Shown: in pieces, positions 604 to 8,355 of the stretch
Layout of the letters: each line of letters opens with the position of its first letter
Numbering within the stretch: position 1 is the first letter of the stretch
IMG/VR virus record: IMGVR_UViG_3300042691_014218
Coordinates: 1-34,477 of that record
DNA length: 34,477 nt
DNA from: a virus
Direction: 5' to 3' (one strand)
Notes under the pieces: model-generated
Seen by the model: only the letters and a program-made list of their open reading frames with translations
Told to the model about the DNA's origin: nothing
Databases searched by the model: none
Position numbers and translations under genes: made by a program

Positions 604-1323
604 ATGCCTTTACCAAAAATATCCACACCAACTTATGAGTTGGAACTACCATCTACTGGACAACCTATTGAGTATAGACCATTTCTTGTTCGTGAAGAAA
701 AACTCTTAGTAATTGCATTGGAAACTGAAGATTCAAAGCAAATAACCAATGCGATAAAAAATGTAATTAAAAATTGTATTTTAACTAAGAATATAAAAGT
801 AGAAACTTTACCTACCTTCGATATTGAATATTTGTTTTTAAATATTCGCGGTAAATCAGTTGGTGAGGAAGTTGATGTTAATATTATTTGTCCAGATGAT
901 GAAGAAACCACTGTACAAGTAAAGATTAATATTGATGATATTCAAGTTCAAAAAAATCCAGAGCATAGCAAGCAAATTAAAATTGATGATAGTCTTGCAA
1001 TTGAAATGAAATATCCATCATTAGATCAATTTATCAAAAGTAATTTTGATTTTACAAATGATAATAATATGGAACAATCTTTTGATCTTGTTGCATCATG
1101 TGTTGAAAAAATTTATACAGAAGAAGAAATTTGGACTTCATCTGATGTAACTAAAAAGGAGATTGTTGATTTCCTTGAGCAAATGAATTCTGCTCAATTT
1201 AAAAAAATTGAAAAGTTTTTTGAAACAATGCCAAAACTTTCTCATGAAATTAAAGTGAAAAACCCAAATACGAAAGTTGAAAGCACTGTAGTTCTGGAGG
1301 GATTATCCAGTTTTTTCGTATAG
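604..1323 (+). CDS. 26: Baseplate hub subunit gp26 (T4_baseplate family)
   Basis: A 239-residue homologue of T4 gp26 (208 residues in T4), needed for hub assembly. The N-terminal Pro-Phe-Leu-Val-Arg-Glu-Glu-Lys-Leu segment and the central Leu-Asn-Ile-Arg-Gly-Lys-Ser-Val-Gly segment are the recognisable family features. The protein is acidic, with no membrane segment. The position, immediately before gp51 and the tape-measure genes, is that of tail assembly chaperones in other long-tailed phages. The last codons run over a T TTT TTC heptamer, so some ribosomes probably shift into the gp51 frame to give a 301-residue fusion. The late promoter at 568 probably drives it. Confidence 0.85.
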   Translation: MPLPKISTPTYELELPSTGQPIEYRPFLVREEKLLVIALETEDSKQITNAIKNVIKNCILTKNIKVETLPTFDIEYLFLNIRGKSVGEEVDVNIICPDDEETTVQVKINIDDIQVQKNPEHSKQIKIDDSLAIEMKYPSLDQFIKSNFDFTNDNNMEQSFDLVASCVEKIYTEEEIWTSSDVTKKEIVDFLEQMNSAQFKKIEKFFETMPKLSHEIKVKNPNTKVESTVVLEGLSSFFV

Positions 1324-1341
1324 CATTGGTCCACATGGACC
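1296..1341 (+). promoter_or_regulatory. Probable programmed -1 ribosomal frameshift signal (gp26 to gp51)
   Basis: Three elements are visible: a Shine-Dalgarno-like GGAGGG at 1296-1301; nine bases later the heptamer T TTT TTC at 1311-1317, in the gp26 reading phase required for simultaneous slippage; and ten bases after that a perfect hairpin, GGTCC (1328-1332), loop ACAT, GGACC (1337-1341). The gp26 stop is at 1321-1323. A -1 slip reads CGT ATA GCA and continues into gp51 without a stop. The layout is that of E. coli dnaX and of tail chaperone frameshifts (lambda G/GT type). Confidence 0.75.
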
Positions 1342-1508
1342 TTGAAAATTATTTTAAGTTGAACTTCGCCTTGATGCAGTATCATAAATACTCATTAACG
1401 GAGATTGAAAATATGTTGCCGTGGGAAAGAGACATTTATGTTGCTTTACTACAAGCGCATTTAGAGGAAGAAAAACTTAAACAGCAGCAACAAAATGGCA
1501 TCAAATAA
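1326..1508 (+). CDS. 51: Baseplate hub assembly protein gp51 homologue
   Basis: A short acidic frame whose Leu-Pro-Trp-Glu-Arg-Asp-Ile-Tyr segment and length fit the cyanophage gp51 family, an assembly catalyst for the baseplate hub. As a free protein it would start at TTG 1326 or ATG 1335, but no ribosome-binding site stands at a usable distance from either, and ATG 1335 lies in the loop and stem of a hairpin. It is more likely made largely as the C-terminal part of a gp26-gp51 frameshift product. It overlaps the start of the tape-measure gene by 14 bases, which suggests translational coupling. Confidence 0.7.
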   Translation: MVHMDLENYFKLNFALMQYHKYSLTEIENMLPWERDIYVALLQAHLEEEKLKQQQQNGIK

Positions 1509-3954
1509 ACCAAAGTTTATCGATAAATTTTGGCCAGTATCTACAATAGTATCAAGTAGAACTGGACAATATAAAAGAATACTTGCTCAACGAATGGAGA
1601 GGAACAAGTATTTAATCGAGAATACTTATGGTGTAAAGGCAGATAGAGTTGTAGATACATTCATCAAAGCATATTTGGCGTCGGATAAAGATTATCCTGC
1701 GCCAATTGAAATTGTTCAAAATCCAAGGTCAGAAAAAGATTTCGATTTATATAATCAATACATTATATTTTTGTGGGAATATTATGTAAGAGATAAGAGT
1801 AAGAAACCAAAACCAGGTAGAGAAAAACCACCGCCAAATATACCCAATAATCAACAACCTCCAGGTGATCCTGGGTCATTGACTTTATATGAAGGGAAGA
1901 AAGAAGAAGATTTAGTTGATGAAGAAGTTGATGAAAGAATTTTAAAACTTCTTGGATTGCAAGATGTTTTTGATATTGATTATGGAACTTATCTTACTCT
2001 ACTAAAAGAGAAGATGATTTCTGCAAGGATGTCATCTACAAGTATTCCTACGGAAGAAATAGAATTAATAACTAATGAATATAAAAGAGTAAAGGGTAAG
2101 GTTGGTAGATTTAAAATAAAAGGTAAGAAAATAAATGCTGATAATATAAAGGCATCTGGTCCAATAAGAATAACTAAAGATCAATTTTTTCTTGCTGGAA
2201 AGGTATCAGTTCCAAATGTTAAATCTGAAGATCAAAAACCGACAGCAGAAACATCTGATTTAAAAAAAGATATACAAGTAATTAGATCTAGTCTTGAAAA
2301 TATTGCATCTTTATTAACGGGTCAGAATAAATTATTACAAAAATCATTTGAAACTCAAAGACTACAAAGAGAAAATAAAAGAAGATCTGATAAGGAAGAC
2401 AAACTAGAAACTGTAAAAGGTGCATTAAAAAATGTCGCACAAAAAGTATTAGCACCATTTCAAAGTATATTGGATAAAATTATTAACTTTATTGTTAATA
2501 TGCTTCTTGGGAGATTTTTTGTTAAGTTGATGGATTGGCTTGCTAATCCAGAAAATTTTGCTAAAGTTAAAAATATTTTTAGATTTTTAAAGGATTGGTG
2601 GCCTGCTCTTCTAGGTGCATATCTACTTTTTGGTAATGGGTTGGGTAGATTTGTTGTAAAGATCACTGCATCTTTAATAAAATATGGATTTAAATTAACT
2701 AAAAAAGTATTACCTCAATTATTAAAATTTCTTAAAAGTCCCATTGGAATGGGATTGGGGTTATTTACTGCTGGTGCGACAGTACCAATGCTTTTCCCAC
2801 AAACTGTCAATGCCCAAGAGACTGCAATATCATCTTCTCCTGGAACTAATGAGGATAAGATTGGTAAACTGAAGCAACAGAAAGAAAATTTAAATTGGTT
2901 AGATAAACTTCAGGGGAAAGGATCTGAAATTGATGAGCAAATTCATTTCTTAGAAACTGGAAAAACCAAGGCATATACTGGCGGTGGTTTAATTACAAAC
3001 TCAAAATATAATAGTGGATTATATACACAACCAATAAAAATTAGTGATATTGGATTTGATGGTGGTGGATCAATACAAAATGATACTGGTGTAAAAGTAT
3101 CTGGTGCTGGAAAGGATACTCAGTTAATTGCTGCTCAACCAGGTGAAATTGTAATTAATAAACCAACAGTAGATGCTTTAGGTAAAAACTTTTTCTTATC
3201 TTTGAATTCTAAGTTTGGTGGATCTGGTGCCAATATACCAAAAATGTATAATGATATTCAACTTGCCGCTAAGGGTGGTCTTGTTGGTGGGTATTCTGGA
3301 GATAAAAAAGATAGTCCACCATCAGATGGAAAGAGAAAACCAACTAGTAAAGTTGCTGCAAAGTTAGCACCTTTCTCTATGAAAGATACATTCATGAATT
3401 TATCTCCGTTGAATATTGATAAAAGAACTACTATTTTTAATCAAGATTATACTAAAGATAAATCAAAATCAAAACCAAAGAATAAACAATTAACACCAAT
3501 GCAACAATGGGCAAAGAATTTCCCAGAACTTGCTAAAAAAGTTAAACCAGGACAATCTGGATATGATGAAATACAAGCAGTAATTAATCCAAAAATTGAT
3601 ATGTCTAATGTATTTTCTACATCATTTACTCCTTTGTTTAATAACATTATTGAAAATACTTTCAATAATACTGTTAATGGTTTAAATTTTGGTGATCATC
3701 AAAACATTAATATTGAAGGTCCCAAAAAACCTAATTTTATACCTGCTAAACAAAATGTTTATATTCCTCCATCACCATCAGTTAATAATGCTCCTAATAT
3801 AATTGCACTTCCACCGATTAGAAAAAATCAAACTTCTAATACTTCTGGTTCTAATAAAAGTATGGGAAAAGATATACCACAGTTTCCAGCGTTTCAAGAT
3901 ACCGCTACTAGAAAAAACAACCTACAAATTTATGGAATAATAGGGGTAGGTTAG
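1495..3954 (+). CDS. Tail tape-measure-like protein, first paralogue
   Basis: 819 residues, placed where the tape measure follows the tail chaperones. The N-terminal third is charged and partly proline-rich (about residues 100-125). A coiled-coil-like stretch ends in a basic motif, Arg-Glu-Asn-Lys-Arg-Arg-x-Asp-Lys-Glu (about 291-300). Hydrophobic segments follow at about 325-350, 368-390 and 415-433, which could enter the host membrane during DNA delivery. Around 545-560 a Gln-Pro-Gly-Glu-Ile-Val-Ile motif resembles the C-terminal turn common in tape-measure proteins. The basic motif plus following hydrophobic block recurs in the next gene, so the two are paralogous in part. T4 gp29 (590 residues) is the functional counterpart; primary similarity to it is not obvious. 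It starts at ATG 1495, inside gp51. Confidence 0.6.
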   Translation: MASNKPKFIDKFWPVSTIVSSRTGQYKRILAQRMERNKYLIENTYGVKADRVVDTFIKAYLASDKDYPAPIEIVQNPRSEKDFDLYNQYIIFLWEYYVRDKSKKPKPGREKPPPNIPNNQQPPGDPGSLTLYEGKKEEDLVDEEVDERILKLLGLQDVFDIDYGTYLTLLKEKMISARMSSTSIPTEEIELITNEYKRVKGKVGRFKIKGKKINADNIKASGPIRITKDQFFLAGKVSVPNVKSEDQKPTAETSDLKKDIQVIRSSLENIASLLTGQNKLLQKSFETQRLQRENKRRSDKEDKLETVKGALKNVAQKVLAPFQSILDKIINFIVNMLLGRFFVKLMDWLANPENFAKVKNIFRFLKDWWPALLGAYLLFGNGLGRFVVKITASLIKYGFKLTKKVLPQLLKFLKSPIGMGLGLFTAGATVPMLFPQTVNAQETAISSSPGTNEDKIGKLKQQKENLNWLDKLQGKGSEIDEQIHFLETGKTKAYTGGGLITNSKYNSGLYTQPIKISDIGFDGGGSIQNDTGVKVSGAGKDTQLIAAQPGEIVINKPTVDALGKNFFLSLNSKFGGSGANIPKMYNDIQLAAKGGLVGGYSGDKKDSPPSDGKRKPTSKVAAKLAPFSMKDTFMNLSPLNIDKRTTIFNQDYTKDKSKSKPKNKQLTPMQQWAKNFPELAKKVKPGQSGYDEIQAVINPKIDMSNVFSTSFTPLFNNIIENTFNNTVNGLNFGDHQNINIEGPKKPNFIPAKQNVYIPPSPSVNNAPNIIALPPIRKNQTSNTSGSNKSMGKDIPQFPAFQDTATRKNNLQIYGIIGVG

Positions 3955-3955
3955 T

Positions 3956-6900
3956 ATGAACTTAGATTCTAAAAAACTTCTTCCACCATCAAAAAAAAGT
4001 GAAAGTCAGAAGATAAATGCTGATAAATTTTTAGTACCAGTAAAAAATATACAATATAAAAATATTGTAAAATTATCTGAGACTAAAGAAGATCAACCAA
4101 AAGTTGAAAAGTTTGGTTTAAAAGATGAAATTCTTTCTATAAAAGAATCAATTCTTTCTATTGAAAAATCTATAGCAAAGTCATTAGATCTACAAAAAGA
4201 AAAAATACTAAAGGATAAATTAGATCGAGAAAATAAAAGAAGACAAGATAAAGAAGAGAAATTAGAACAAAAAAAGGACTACGGTTTTGGTAAAATAATA
4301 AAGAATATTCCTAAACCAAAATTAAGTTTTATTGATTGGATTAAGCGATTTGTTTTAAATATGTTCCTTGGTTATTTTGCCGTTAGGGTGATTGATTATC
4401 TGCCAACTATAATATCAATAGCAAGTAAAATAACTCCAGCAATAAACTTTATTGGTTGGATGGGTAAAAATTTGTTGAAAGGGTTGATTGATTTTATTGA
4501 TTGGGGTTATAAAGCATATGATGCAACTCGTGGATTTATAAAACAAGTCGCTGGTGATGGAGCACAAAAACAATTTGATAGTTTCTCTAAAAATTTAAAT
4601 GATGTTTTAAATTATACAATAGTTACTGCTCTTGGTATTGCCGCTCTTGCTGATAAAGTTAGGGATAAAAATCCAAACAATAAAACAAATAAAAAAGGTC
4701 AACCCAGAGATCCTCGTACAAATAGACCAGTACCGACAGATAAAAAGGGAAATTATTCTTTCCATAGAAGTGGTGGTGCTTATAATAGAGAAGTATTCAG
4801 AAAAACTGATTGGTCATATAAGCAATATGACGCGAATGAAAATCAAATAATGAGGAGATACGCCAGAAAATATGGGCGTGATGCTGCAGTTGATAAGTTT
4901 GGTAAGGAAAGTGTAAAGGATATTGGTGGAAAGTATGGAAGATCTAAGTTAACTAATGCTGCAAGAGCAGGTGCTGTTAAATTAGTTGGAAAGTCTGGAG
5001 CAAAGACTGTTTTAAAATTTACTAGACCTCTTCTAAAAAGACTTCCTCTTATTGGAGCACTTATTGATTTTGGACTTTCTGTTGCTTTAGGTGAACCATT
5101 AGGTAGAGCAGCATTCTCTGCTATTGGTGCTGCTCTTTTAGGTACAATCGGTGCTGGATTTGGTGGTCCTATTGGAGCAGTTCTTGGTGGACTAGCTGGT
5201 AATTGGGCAGGTACAAAATTGTATGATATTTTATTTAATGGGAAGAAAGAACAGGGTAATAAAAAGGTTAAAGGTAAAGCATCTGGTGGACAGGTCACTT
5301 CTAGAGGTGGTACAACTGTAGGTGGATCTATTGGAAGAACACAAAAAGTAATTAGAAGAGTACCAAAACCACCTAAATTACAAGCACCAGAATCTATTCC
5401 AGGAAAAAATATTGGCGGTGAAAAGGTAATAGATAAAGTTTTTCCAAAAGAAACTTCACCAGAACATATTAGTCCTCTTAGATCTTTAAAAACTTCTTCA
5501 AGTATATTGAAAGGATCTGGGTCTACATTATTAAGTCAAACAATGGCAGTTGGTGTTGATCTTGCTATGGGGCAAAAACCAACAAAAGAATTTTATAGTA
5601 AATATGGAAAAGCGTTTGGGTCTTTTGTTCAGGAAATGGTTAATACTAATATGGAAATGACCACCCAAGAAACAGCAAGATCAATACTTGCTATGGCAAA
5701 CGGTGGAACAGTTCCATATAATATTCCATCTAGGGGACCAAATTTTGGTGAAAAGGTTGGGGAGATGGTGGCAACTGCATTTGCCAACACTGTTGAAAAA
5801 CAATCGTCATTAATATTAAATGCATTGAAAATAGAATCGAATAAAAAATCATATACTGGTATTACTGAAAGTGATCCTACATTGGAAGGTGATGATGAAG
5901 GTGGTGAAGGTGGTATGACTAAAGGTACGTGGGGACCACTTTTAGATTTAATTGCTGGTAAAGAATCTGGTGGAAATTATGAGGCAATGTATCCAAGCAC
6001 TACTTTAAAAGGTGCCACTAAAATGACAATCGCTGAAGTTGCCAGAAGAGCAACTGGTGCTGTAGGAAAATATCAACAACTTCCACAATACCTTGTCAAT
6101 CGAGCAAAGGCGGCAGGTCTTAATCCAGATAAAGATCTGTATAGTCCAGAAAATCAAGAAAAGATTATTATTAATGTTAATATCAAAGGAAGAGGTGGTG
6201 AAAGATGGTTAAAGGGTGAAATAAGTGATGAAGAATTTATGCAAGGATTATCACAAGAATTTGCATCTTTACCTAATGCTCAAGGTAAGTTTTATTATCC
6301 TGGGCAAAGTAGTGCAATGACCCCTGCAAAGGTAAAAGCAGCATTATCTAAAGTTAAGAAAGGTGGTTATTCTCAAGCAGAACTTGCTAAAGGTGGTAAA
6401 GATCCTTCGATTGGATTGGGTAAAGGATATGGTTCTGCTGGAGGAAAAATTGCTGGTGAATTGGGTAGGTATCTTAATAAAGCATTAGTTCCTGGAAAAG
6501 ATTTCCTTAGAGTTACAGAACATCCTGAACATGGTGGAGTTAGAGGTAGACATGCAAGAAATTCTTATCACTACGATGGTAGAGCAGTTGATATTGGTGC
6601 GTGGGATTGGGAACAACCAAAAATATTAAGAGCGATTGCAGACTTTAATAAGAAGCGTGGTGTAAAACCAGTTGAATTATTACATGCAAAAAATGAACCT
6701 TCTGGACATAGCGACCACGTTCACGTCGCATATAAACATGGTGGATTAGTAACAAAACCAACACATGCTTTAATTGGTGAAACTAAAAAACCAGAAATGG
6801 TATTGGATCCAGATACAACTGGGACAATGAATAAAGAATATCCTGGTATGTTGGCAAAGTTAAATGCTGCTAAAAATAAAAAGCAAATATCTGAAGTTTT

Positions 6901-7069
6901 AAATACCTATGCTTCTTATGAAAACAATAATGGTAAGTCTTCTATTATTCTGATACCGATAGAAAAAATTGTAAATAATACTATAACTAAACAAACACCA
7001 GGTCAATCAATGACTGGTGGAAGATCTTTTTCTTCTGATGGTTTAAACATCGAAACTTTACTAGCATGA
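3956..7069 (+). CDS. Tape-measure-like virion protein with lysozyme-like and M15-like peptidase domains
   Basis: 1037 residues, starting one base after the previous stop, with a GGGGTAGG ribosome-binding site. The basic Arg-Glu-Asn-Lys-Arg-Arg motif (about 90) and following hydrophobic block (about 124-185) copy the preceding gene. A second glycine-rich hydrophobic region lies at about 358-420. Residues about 650-790 resemble phage muramidases: Gly-Lys-Glu-Ser-Gly-Gly near the front (candidate catalytic Glu), Gly-Lys-Tyr-Gln-Gln-Leu-Pro, then Ser-Pro-Glu-Asn-Gln. Residues about 825-930 resemble M15-type peptidases: Tyr-His-Tyr-Asp-Gly-Arg-Ala-Val-Asp-Ile (about 870) and His-Ser-Asp-His-Val-His-Val (about 918-924), the metal-binding residues. 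The C-terminus has the Ala-Leu-Ile-Gly-Glu...Pro-Glu-Met-Val-Leu tape-measure signature. It probably opens the peptidoglycan at DNA entry. Confidence 0.65.
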   Translation: MNLDSKKLLPPSKKSESQKINADKFLVPVKNIQYKNIVKLSETKEDQPKVEKFGLKDEILSIKESILSIEKSIAKSLDLQKEKILKDKLDRENKRRQDKEEKLEQKKDYGFGKIIKNIPKPKLSFIDWIKRFVLNMFLGYFAVRVIDYLPTIISIASKITPAINFIGWMGKNLLKGLIDFIDWGYKAYDATRGFIKQVAGDGAQKQFDSFSKNLNDVLNYTIVTALGIAALADKVRDKNPNNKTNKKGQPRDPRTNRPVPTDKKGNYSFHRSGGAYNREVFRKTDWSYKQYDANENQIMRRYARKYGRDAAVDKFGKESVKDIGGKYGRSKLTNAARAGAVKLVGKSGAKTVLKFTRPLLKRLPLIGALIDFGLSVALGEPLGRAAFSAIGAALLGTIGAGFGGPIGAVLGGLAGNWAGTKLYDILFNGKKEQGNKKVKGKASGGQVTSRGGTTVGGSIGRTQKVIRRVPKPPKLQAPESIPGKNIGGEKVIDKVFPKETSPEHISPLRSLKTSSSILKGSGSTLLSQTMAVGVDLAMGQKPTKEFYSKYGKAFGSFVQEMVNTNMEMTTQETARSILAMANGGTVPYNIPSRGPNFGEKVGEMVATAFANTVEKQSSLILNALKIESNKKSYTGITESDPTLEGDDEGGEGGMTKGTWGPLLDLIAGKESGGNYEAMYPSTTLKGATKMTIAEVARRATGAVGKYQQLPQYLVNRAKAAGLNPDKDLYSPENQEKIIINVNIKGRGGERWLKGEISDEEFMQGLSQEFASLPNAQGKFYYPGQSSAMTPAKVKAALSKVKKGGYSQAELAKGGKDPSIGLGKGYGSAGGKIAGELGRYLNKALVPGKDFLRVTEHPEHGGVRGRHARNSYHYDGRAVDIGAWDWEQPKILRAIADFNKKRGVKPVELLHAKNEPSGHSDHVHVAYKHGGLVTKPTHALIGETKKPEMVLDPDTTGTMNKEYPGMLAKLNAAKNKKQISEVLNTYASYENNNGKSSIILIPIEKIVNNTITKQTPGQSMTGGRSFSSDGLNIETLLA

Positions 7070-8355
7070 GCACACCAAACATTGCTGCTAACCCAGCTAA
7101 TATAACTCTATTTAAAATATATTCTAATGTCAATGGAAACTCTTCTGATGTTAGGGGTGGTGTTGTAAACTTATCTTATTTTGAAAGCGTATTAGAAAAT
7201 ACTATAAGAGTTAGTGCTACAATAATTGATACTGGATCTGAAAATGGTAATGTATTGCAGTTACTGGAGTTGTCTGGGTTTGAAAAAGTTGAATTAGAAT
7301 TCAACGATAATCAAACATCTGAAAATAAACTTAGATTTACTGGAAACAACTCATTGTATATTTCAAAAATAAGAAACATATATTCACATACACAAAAGAC
7401 TGCATTCACAATAGACTTAGTTTCTAAAGAATTTCTTCTCAATGAACAAGAAAGTAGTTTAGTTTATAAAAGGTATGACGGTGAAATATCAAGTTCTGTT
7501 AAAAAAATAATGCAGGACTATCTTAAAACTAGTAAATCTATTTTTACTGATACCACTGTTAATACATATAATTTTATTGGTGATGCTAAAAAACCAATGA
7601 GATTATGTACTGAGATGGCGAGATTTTGTATACCTGATGGTGTTCCTGGAGCAAAAGGTAAAGTTGCTGGATACTTATTTTTTGAAACGTATGATGGTTA
7701 TAATTTCAAGTCTATAGATAAATTGCTAGATCCAGATAGAGGATATAATTCTTACATTTATAATATGAATACTGGATTGCCATCTGGATATACTGGTAAA
7801 ATATTGGAATATTATTCTGATAAAACTATTGATGTTCAAAAAAGATTAATGATTGGTGGATATGGTACTAAACTTGAGGGGTTTGATCCATATACGGATA
7901 AATTTGGATATGCTTTAGTTGATTCTAAAAATCAACCTCAACTTGGAGGTAAAAAAATGCCTAAATTGACTTCTGATTTTACTGGACCTTCTAGAAAATC
8001 AATAAGAAGACTTGATATAGGACAACTTCCAAATGGATCAACAAGTAAAGAACAATTGAAAGGTGCGTTTACTCAAAATTTAGATGCTGGTAATGTCATT
8101 GCACAATCTGCAATGAGATACAATCAGTTATTTACTTTAATAATGACTATAACTATTGCTGGAGATATTTCAATTAGGGCAGGTGATTTAATATATTGTG
8201 ATTTTCCAGGGACAACCCCAAAAGAAAACCCAGATCCAGATAAGGAAATAAGTGGTATATATATGATATCGGATATATGCCATTTTATAGAACCAAAAAG
8301 AACATTCACTAAAATGAATTTAGTTCGTGGTTCTTTTGGGAGAACACCAAAGTAA
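7066..8355 (+). CDS. 27: Baseplate hub subunit gp27-like
   Basis: 429 residues; T4 gp27 has 391. The order tape measure, this gene, gp5 hub fits gp27, which forms the trimeric ring joining gp5 to the tail tube. The N-terminal region (Phe-Lys-Ile-Tyr-Ser-Asn, then Leu-Ser-Tyr-Phe-Glu-Ser-Val-Leu-Glu-Asn-Thr) starts a beta-rich domain typical of hub proteins. The C-terminal region has a Gly-Asp-Ile-Ser-Ile-Arg-Ala-Gly-Asp-Leu-Ile-Tyr strand like the tube-like barrels of this family. The start overlaps the previous stop (ATGA). No membrane segment is visible. The call rests on order, size and general pattern more than on strong local identity. Confidence 0.65.
   Translation: MSTPNIAANPANITLFKIYSNVNGNSSDVRGGVVNLSYFESVLENTIRVSATIIDTGSENGNVLQLLELSGFEKVELEFNDNQTSENKLRFTGNNSLYISKIRNIYSHTQKTAFTIDLVSKEFLLNEQESSLVYKRYDGEISSSVKKIMQDYLKTSKSIFTDTTVNTYNFIGDAKKPMRLCTEMARFCIPDGVPGAKGKVAGYLFFETYDGYNFKSIDKLLDPDRGYNSYIYNMNTGLPSGYTGKILEYYSDKTIDVQKRLMIGGYGTKLEGFDPYTDKFGYALVDSKNQPQLGGKKMPKLTSDFTGPSRKSIRRLDIGQLPNGSTSKEQLKGAFTQNLDAGNVIAQSAMRYNQLFTLIMTITIAGDISIRAGDLIYCDFPGTTPKENPDPDKEISGIYMISDICHFIEPKRTFTKMNLVRGSFGRTPK

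Follow-up and report, generated by a model that had tools for sequence, protein, structure and literature searches.

Near the 3' end of gp26 in a virus of the marine-cyanophage kind, a second open frame known as gp51 runs in the -1 frame past the gp26 stop codon, which raises the question whether gp26 and gp51 are two genes or one gene read in two ways. The window, i.e. the whole stretch of viral DNA analysed, is 34,477 nucleotides long. A first-pass annotation, made from the letters of the window, had described the junction as a dnaX-style cassette for -1 frameshifting. Judged from the sequences of the window and its relatives, the site is very probably a programmed -1 ribosomal frameshift, predicted to make gp26 and gp26-gp51 as tail assembly chaperones.

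All elements of the site lie on the + strand. The short, TAC-N-like product gp26 is read in the zero frame from ATG to TAG (604-1323, 239 aa) and matched PF12322 (E=2e-76) and phrog_150 'baseplate hub' (E=5e-80). Close to its end a Shine-Dalgarno-like (SD-like) element, GGAGGG (1296-1301), is followed by nine bases (1302-1310) and by the slippery heptamer T TTT TTC (1311-1317), whose zero-frame codons are TTT (1312-1314) and TTC (1315-1317). Ten bases (1318-1327) separate the heptamer from the hairpin GGTCC-ACAT-GGACC (1328-1341), a perfect stem of five pairs, and within this spacer lies the gp26 stop codon TAG (1321-1323), a single codon past the heptamer. The -1 frame opens at 1281 and has no stop before the one at 1506-1508. 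After a shift it would start with CGT (1317-1319) and add 63 codons before the stop; this extension (1317-1508) matched phrog_634 (E=3e-28), and the deduced gp26-gp51 has 301 aa with the junction FFRIAL. On recheck, every base of the layout given in the first-pass annotation was right, and the stop in the spacer, the open -1 frame into gp51 and the 301-residue product were all reproduced from the sequence. The 29 genes of the window hold 88 in-phase X XXY YYZ heptamers, two of which lead into a -1 frame that stays open well beyond the stop of the zero frame, namely the gp26 site and one at 7042. The second one (T TTA AAC, 7042-7048) lies in phase 27 bases before the end of the gene at 3956-7069, and its -1 frame opens into the next gene at 7066-8355 (ATGA overlap), possibly by chance.

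Relatives of the locus were gathered from IMG/VR plus named phages, and 181 loci were located; a KVP40-like gp26 used as scan query gave few loci. A non-redundant set of 120 relatives had gp26 identities of about 21-95%. An in-phase T TTT TTY at 0-6 nt from the gp26 stop was found in 178/181 loci, as TTTTTTC in 176 and TTTTTTT in 2, and in 174 of these 178 the stop was 3 nt past the heptamer. The carriers included cyanophages, Sinorhizobium phiM7, Pseudomonas pf16, Aeromonas 65, Vibrio D479, Vibrio EniLVp02 and Stenotrophomonas Yut3. T TTT TTY was present in each of the 120 non-redundant loci, and so was a -1 extension free of interruptions; the extension was conserved in the protein alignment and 56-66 codons long, bar one contig ending early. 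Loss of either the heptamer or the -1 open frame in close relatives, the outcome that the first-pass annotation regarded as damaging, was not seen across the 120 loci. The conservation in relatives indicates that the heptamer site is not a product of chance. The three exceptions among the 181 loci were Aeromonas phiA8-29, Vibrio K357 and Serratia Kevin (L094, L095, L096), where TTTTC replaces the heptamer. In these three phages the -1 frame still runs on into a domain resembling gp51 (MPWHL...), which the records list as a hypothetical gene of its own. In one otherwise 95% identical contig (L007) gp26 is broken by a stop codon, reflecting either a sequencing error or a broken copy.

Next we compared the two slippery Phe codons with other codons of gp26, on a tree (total length about 30 substitutions per site) built from 113 gp26 genes of the cyanophage type. 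No synonymous change was counted at the two slippery codons, whereas 4-36 changes were counted at each of 48 other conserved two-fold codon columns. The first slippery Phe was TTT in 120/120 relatives and the second TTC in 118/120, against a TTT share of 71% elsewhere, and the codon before the pair ended in T in 120/120 relatives as compared to 73 expected. Pooled shuffle controls inflate significance because the sequences are related, and the conservative tree-based count was therefore taken as the main test. The heptamer has thus been kept while comparable codons drifted, in agreement with the earlier expectation.

The SD-like element also exceeded what its coding would explain. Its Glu codon was GAG in 86/105 cases, in comparison to 917/2878 (32%) elsewhere, and in cyanophage-type sequences the element paired with the anti-SD more strongly than synonymous shuffles did (mean z -1.06, with +0.15 for control segments). 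The SD-like part of the proposed cassette was in this way borne out against synonymous controls, and GGAGGG is probably an upstream stimulator of the shift.

Downstream, the 42 nt after the heptamer had an MFE of -9.5 kcal/mol in 119 relatives, compared to -4.1 in synonymous shuffles that preserve the -1-frame protein. The folding excess (mean z -2.61, s.e. 0.15) had fallen to about 0 by +29 nt. Among the 54 distinct sequences with the stem type of the window (class i), 25 cells had changed on both sides and still paired, versus 7.5 in shuffles. This covariation vanished when the partner was slid by one column, and by parsimony both bases of a pair had switched between GC/CG and AT/TA about 11 times independently. 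Covariation was weaker in the class iii stem than in class i. A P-SSM2-type stem, AGTATGGCWCA...TGWGTCATACT, starts about 5 nt past the heptamer, and an S-CAM1-type stem, ACTCTTCCA...TGGAAGGGT, starts about 7 nt past it. The 5-bp stem of the window is missing in some close relatives, and some (e.g. L012, L076) have weak hairpins only. One universal hairpin was considered and ruled out, as the stems differ by clade. By sequence comparison, a hairpin at this place is kept, its identity being clade-specific and non-homologous between clades. The expected conservation of the hairpin consequently held in part: a hairpin exceeds the synonymous controls and class i covaries, but the exact hairpin belongs to its clade. 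Folding energy and covariation make the hairpin a probable 3' stimulator of the shift.

The two products were also compared with gp26 and gp51 of T4. In T4 gp51 (249 aa), residues 1-201 matched PF12322 and residues 147-246 matched phrog_634. In profile comparison residues 14-188 of T4-type gp51 aligned with the cyanophage gp26 (E=6e-7) and residues 200-249 with the -1 extension (E=1.8e-7), meaning that a single T4-type gp51 chain carries homologues of both halves in their order; the extension begins where T4-type gp26 ends. By this homology gp26/gp26-gp51 is the counterpart of the separate T4 genes 26/51, because T4 gp51 aligns as a gp26-like domain plus a -1-frame domain. Inspection of T4 and T-even-type loci showed genes 26 and 51 to be divergent and gene 26 to contain no slippery heptamer, although many of these loci retain GLKEFF, with TTC as the first Phe codon. 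The phages share the families PF12322 and phrog_150/634 and a long form that consists of the short form and a C-terminal domain. However, T4 has two separate divergent genes without a slippery site, whereas the single gene here has an SD-like site and a hairpin that varies by clade, and would be read with a -1 frameshift. Cyanophage gp51 has been noted to reach only about 20% of its T4 counterpart in length and to lack the first ~200 residues (Sullivan et al., PMC3037559). A frameshift would explain the short gp51, the absent part being gp26.

Based on Pfam and PHROGs the zero-frame product is a T4_baseplate/baseplate hub protein and the -1 product a 'baseplate hub assembly catalyst', and PHROG 150 is a single profile that spans gp26 and the extension. 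T4 gp26 and gp51 are listed as hub assembly chaperones (PMC3004832). The earlier proposal that gp26 and gp51 are a chaperone pair is supported by this T4 literature and by the collinear homology to T4 gp51. By analogy with T4 gp26/gp51 and lambda gpG/gpGT (PMC5009743), we infer that gp26 and gp26-gp51 would be the short and the long assembly chaperone in a fixed ratio. Read from the genes, the architecture is that of a single chain with a short form and a form extended at its C-terminus. Confident structure models were obtained for gp26 and a T4-type gp51. The T4-type gp51 model had no PDB match with Foldseek, and no PDB homologues of gp26 or of the extension were found; against a viral structure library, gp26 returned T4-type hub proteins.

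Two large genes follow gp51, at 1495-3954 (819 aa) and 3956-7069 (1037 aa). The 819-aa product had matches of unknown function, a weak endolysin match and no tape-measure match, while the 1037-aa product had weak matches to tape-measure and endolysin profiles. Some genes at the 819-aa position in other phages had weak tape-measure matches. It is plausible that the gene right after gp51 encodes the tape measure.

From the patterns described above we infer the occurrence of the slip, its efficiency, the roles of the two stimulators and the chaperone function. In the proposed mechanism the majority of ribosomes would terminate at TAG 1321 and release gp26 of 239 aa. A minority would pause over T TTT TTC, aided by contact between GGAGGG and the anti-SD upstream and by the hairpin downstream. 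A backward slip of one base, with both Phe-tRNAs re-pairing in tandem, would then lead to gp26-gp51 of 301 aa. The two forms may act in tail (hub/tape-measure) assembly as a short and a long chaperone, like lambda gpG/gpGT.

Independent synthesis of gp51, with translation coupled to the termination of gp26 and a start at TTG 1326 or ATG 1335, and with the heptamer as a mere conserved Phe-Phe, is very unlikely, although gp51 has its own CDS in the public records of many cyanophages and an in-frame ATG precedes its conserved part in 92/120 relatives. The remaining 28/120 have no ATG there, and 11/120 have no ATG, GTG or TTG. The SD-like element cannot serve TTG 1326 or ATG 1335, because at 24-33 nt upstream it is too far away. 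Moreover, coding for Phe-Phe cannot account for the zero synonymous change, and the T4 homologue is one fused chain. The first-pass annotation had argued that gp51 alone may hardly be made, on the ground that the hairpin buries its only ATG. The relatives without a usable start agree with the conclusion, but the ground itself needs amending: ATG 1335 is the first ATG of the -1 frame and others follow, with a TTG at 1326 too, and only part of ATG 1335 is buried, A1335 and T1336 being in the loop and G1337 in the stem. The missing starts argue against a separate gp51 more strongly than the partly buried ATG does.

The T run could instead act on the RNA polymerase, so that transcriptional slippage yields mRNAs joining the two frames. 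Single-base runs can provoke this in some systems, and runs of 9 A or T have been discussed (PMC5009743), but the run here is just 6 T in nearly all loci and its length is fixed. Selection on the hairpin after the heptamer and on the SD-like site before it suits ribosomal shifting, and we consider slippage by the polymerase even less likely than a separate gp51. Least likely of all, to the point of being negligible, is a relic -1 continuation, with the protein or the overlap alone accounting for the conservation. The heptamer does overlap the conserved FF, and the hairpin overlaps the -1-frame codons for HMDL. Nevertheless, the synonymous controls reject this at the heptamer, where the zero frame was controlled for, and in the stretch that follows, where the -1 frame was, T-even gene 26 mostly keeps GLKEFF yet is without the slippery heptamer, and none of the 120 relatives has an intact gp26 but a lost extension.

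Programmed -1 frameshifting, the reading we prefer, can be placed among known systems. E. coli dnaX shares the upstream SD-like site, the X XXY YYZ heptamer and the downstream stem-loop, and all three parts named in the first-pass annotation are present here, the stem itself differing between clades. In contrast to dnaX, T TTT TTC would yield the longer product. The stem of the window (5 bp, 10 nt past the heptamer) is smaller, weaker and more distant than the dnaX stem, and this counts against the frameshift reading, as do the absence of that stem from some close relatives and, for the chaperone fold, the negative Foldseek search of the PDB. In dnaX the heptamer is A AAA AAG, the efficiency is about 50% and the shift gives the shorter product (PMC5009743). 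Lambda gpG/gpGT has a different heptamer, and here the SD-like site and hairpin are under selection; the likeness to lambda is one of architecture. The TAC locus of Vandenendeviridae/Andersonviridae (phage Adele, PMC12846349) shares a conserved T-run -1 frameshift and a TAC-N gene with a misannotated downstream ORF, but it has a GTTTTT motif, as compared to T TTT TTC here, and is from other phage families. T4-like TAC genes and their poly-T shift signals are already known from Vladimirov et al. 2022, as relayed in passages of two later papers: PMC12846349 mentions that TAC-N genes in T4-like phages carry poly-T shift signals, and PMC10885494 that some T4-like phages have a short gene plus a fused long gene in place of frameshifting. 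Vladimirov et al. 2022 aside, neither an earlier description of the site in cyanophages nor an earlier report of hairpin turnover was found in the open literature. Two findings may be new: the hairpin turnover, and the evidence that stimulators flank the heptamer.

For cyanophages the finding would correct many genome annotations, in which gp51 is listed as its own gene or omitted. In the record of Aeromonas 65 (L084:3792-3872) there is an ORF of 81 bases only, and in that of S-CAM1 (L090) no gp51 is listed; in both the -1 extension is intact. For T4-like phages as a whole, we are inclined to think, with some reservation, that the frameshift is ancestral and that the T-evens swapped it for gene duplication with one copy fixed as the fusion, while in cyanophages hairpins were replaced by non-homologous ones. 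Within this reading, the replacement of hairpins around a constant heptamer would mean that selection keeps the efficiency of the frameshift and not one structure. The group would then offer a natural comparison between frameshifting and gene duplication as two routes to one protein pair.
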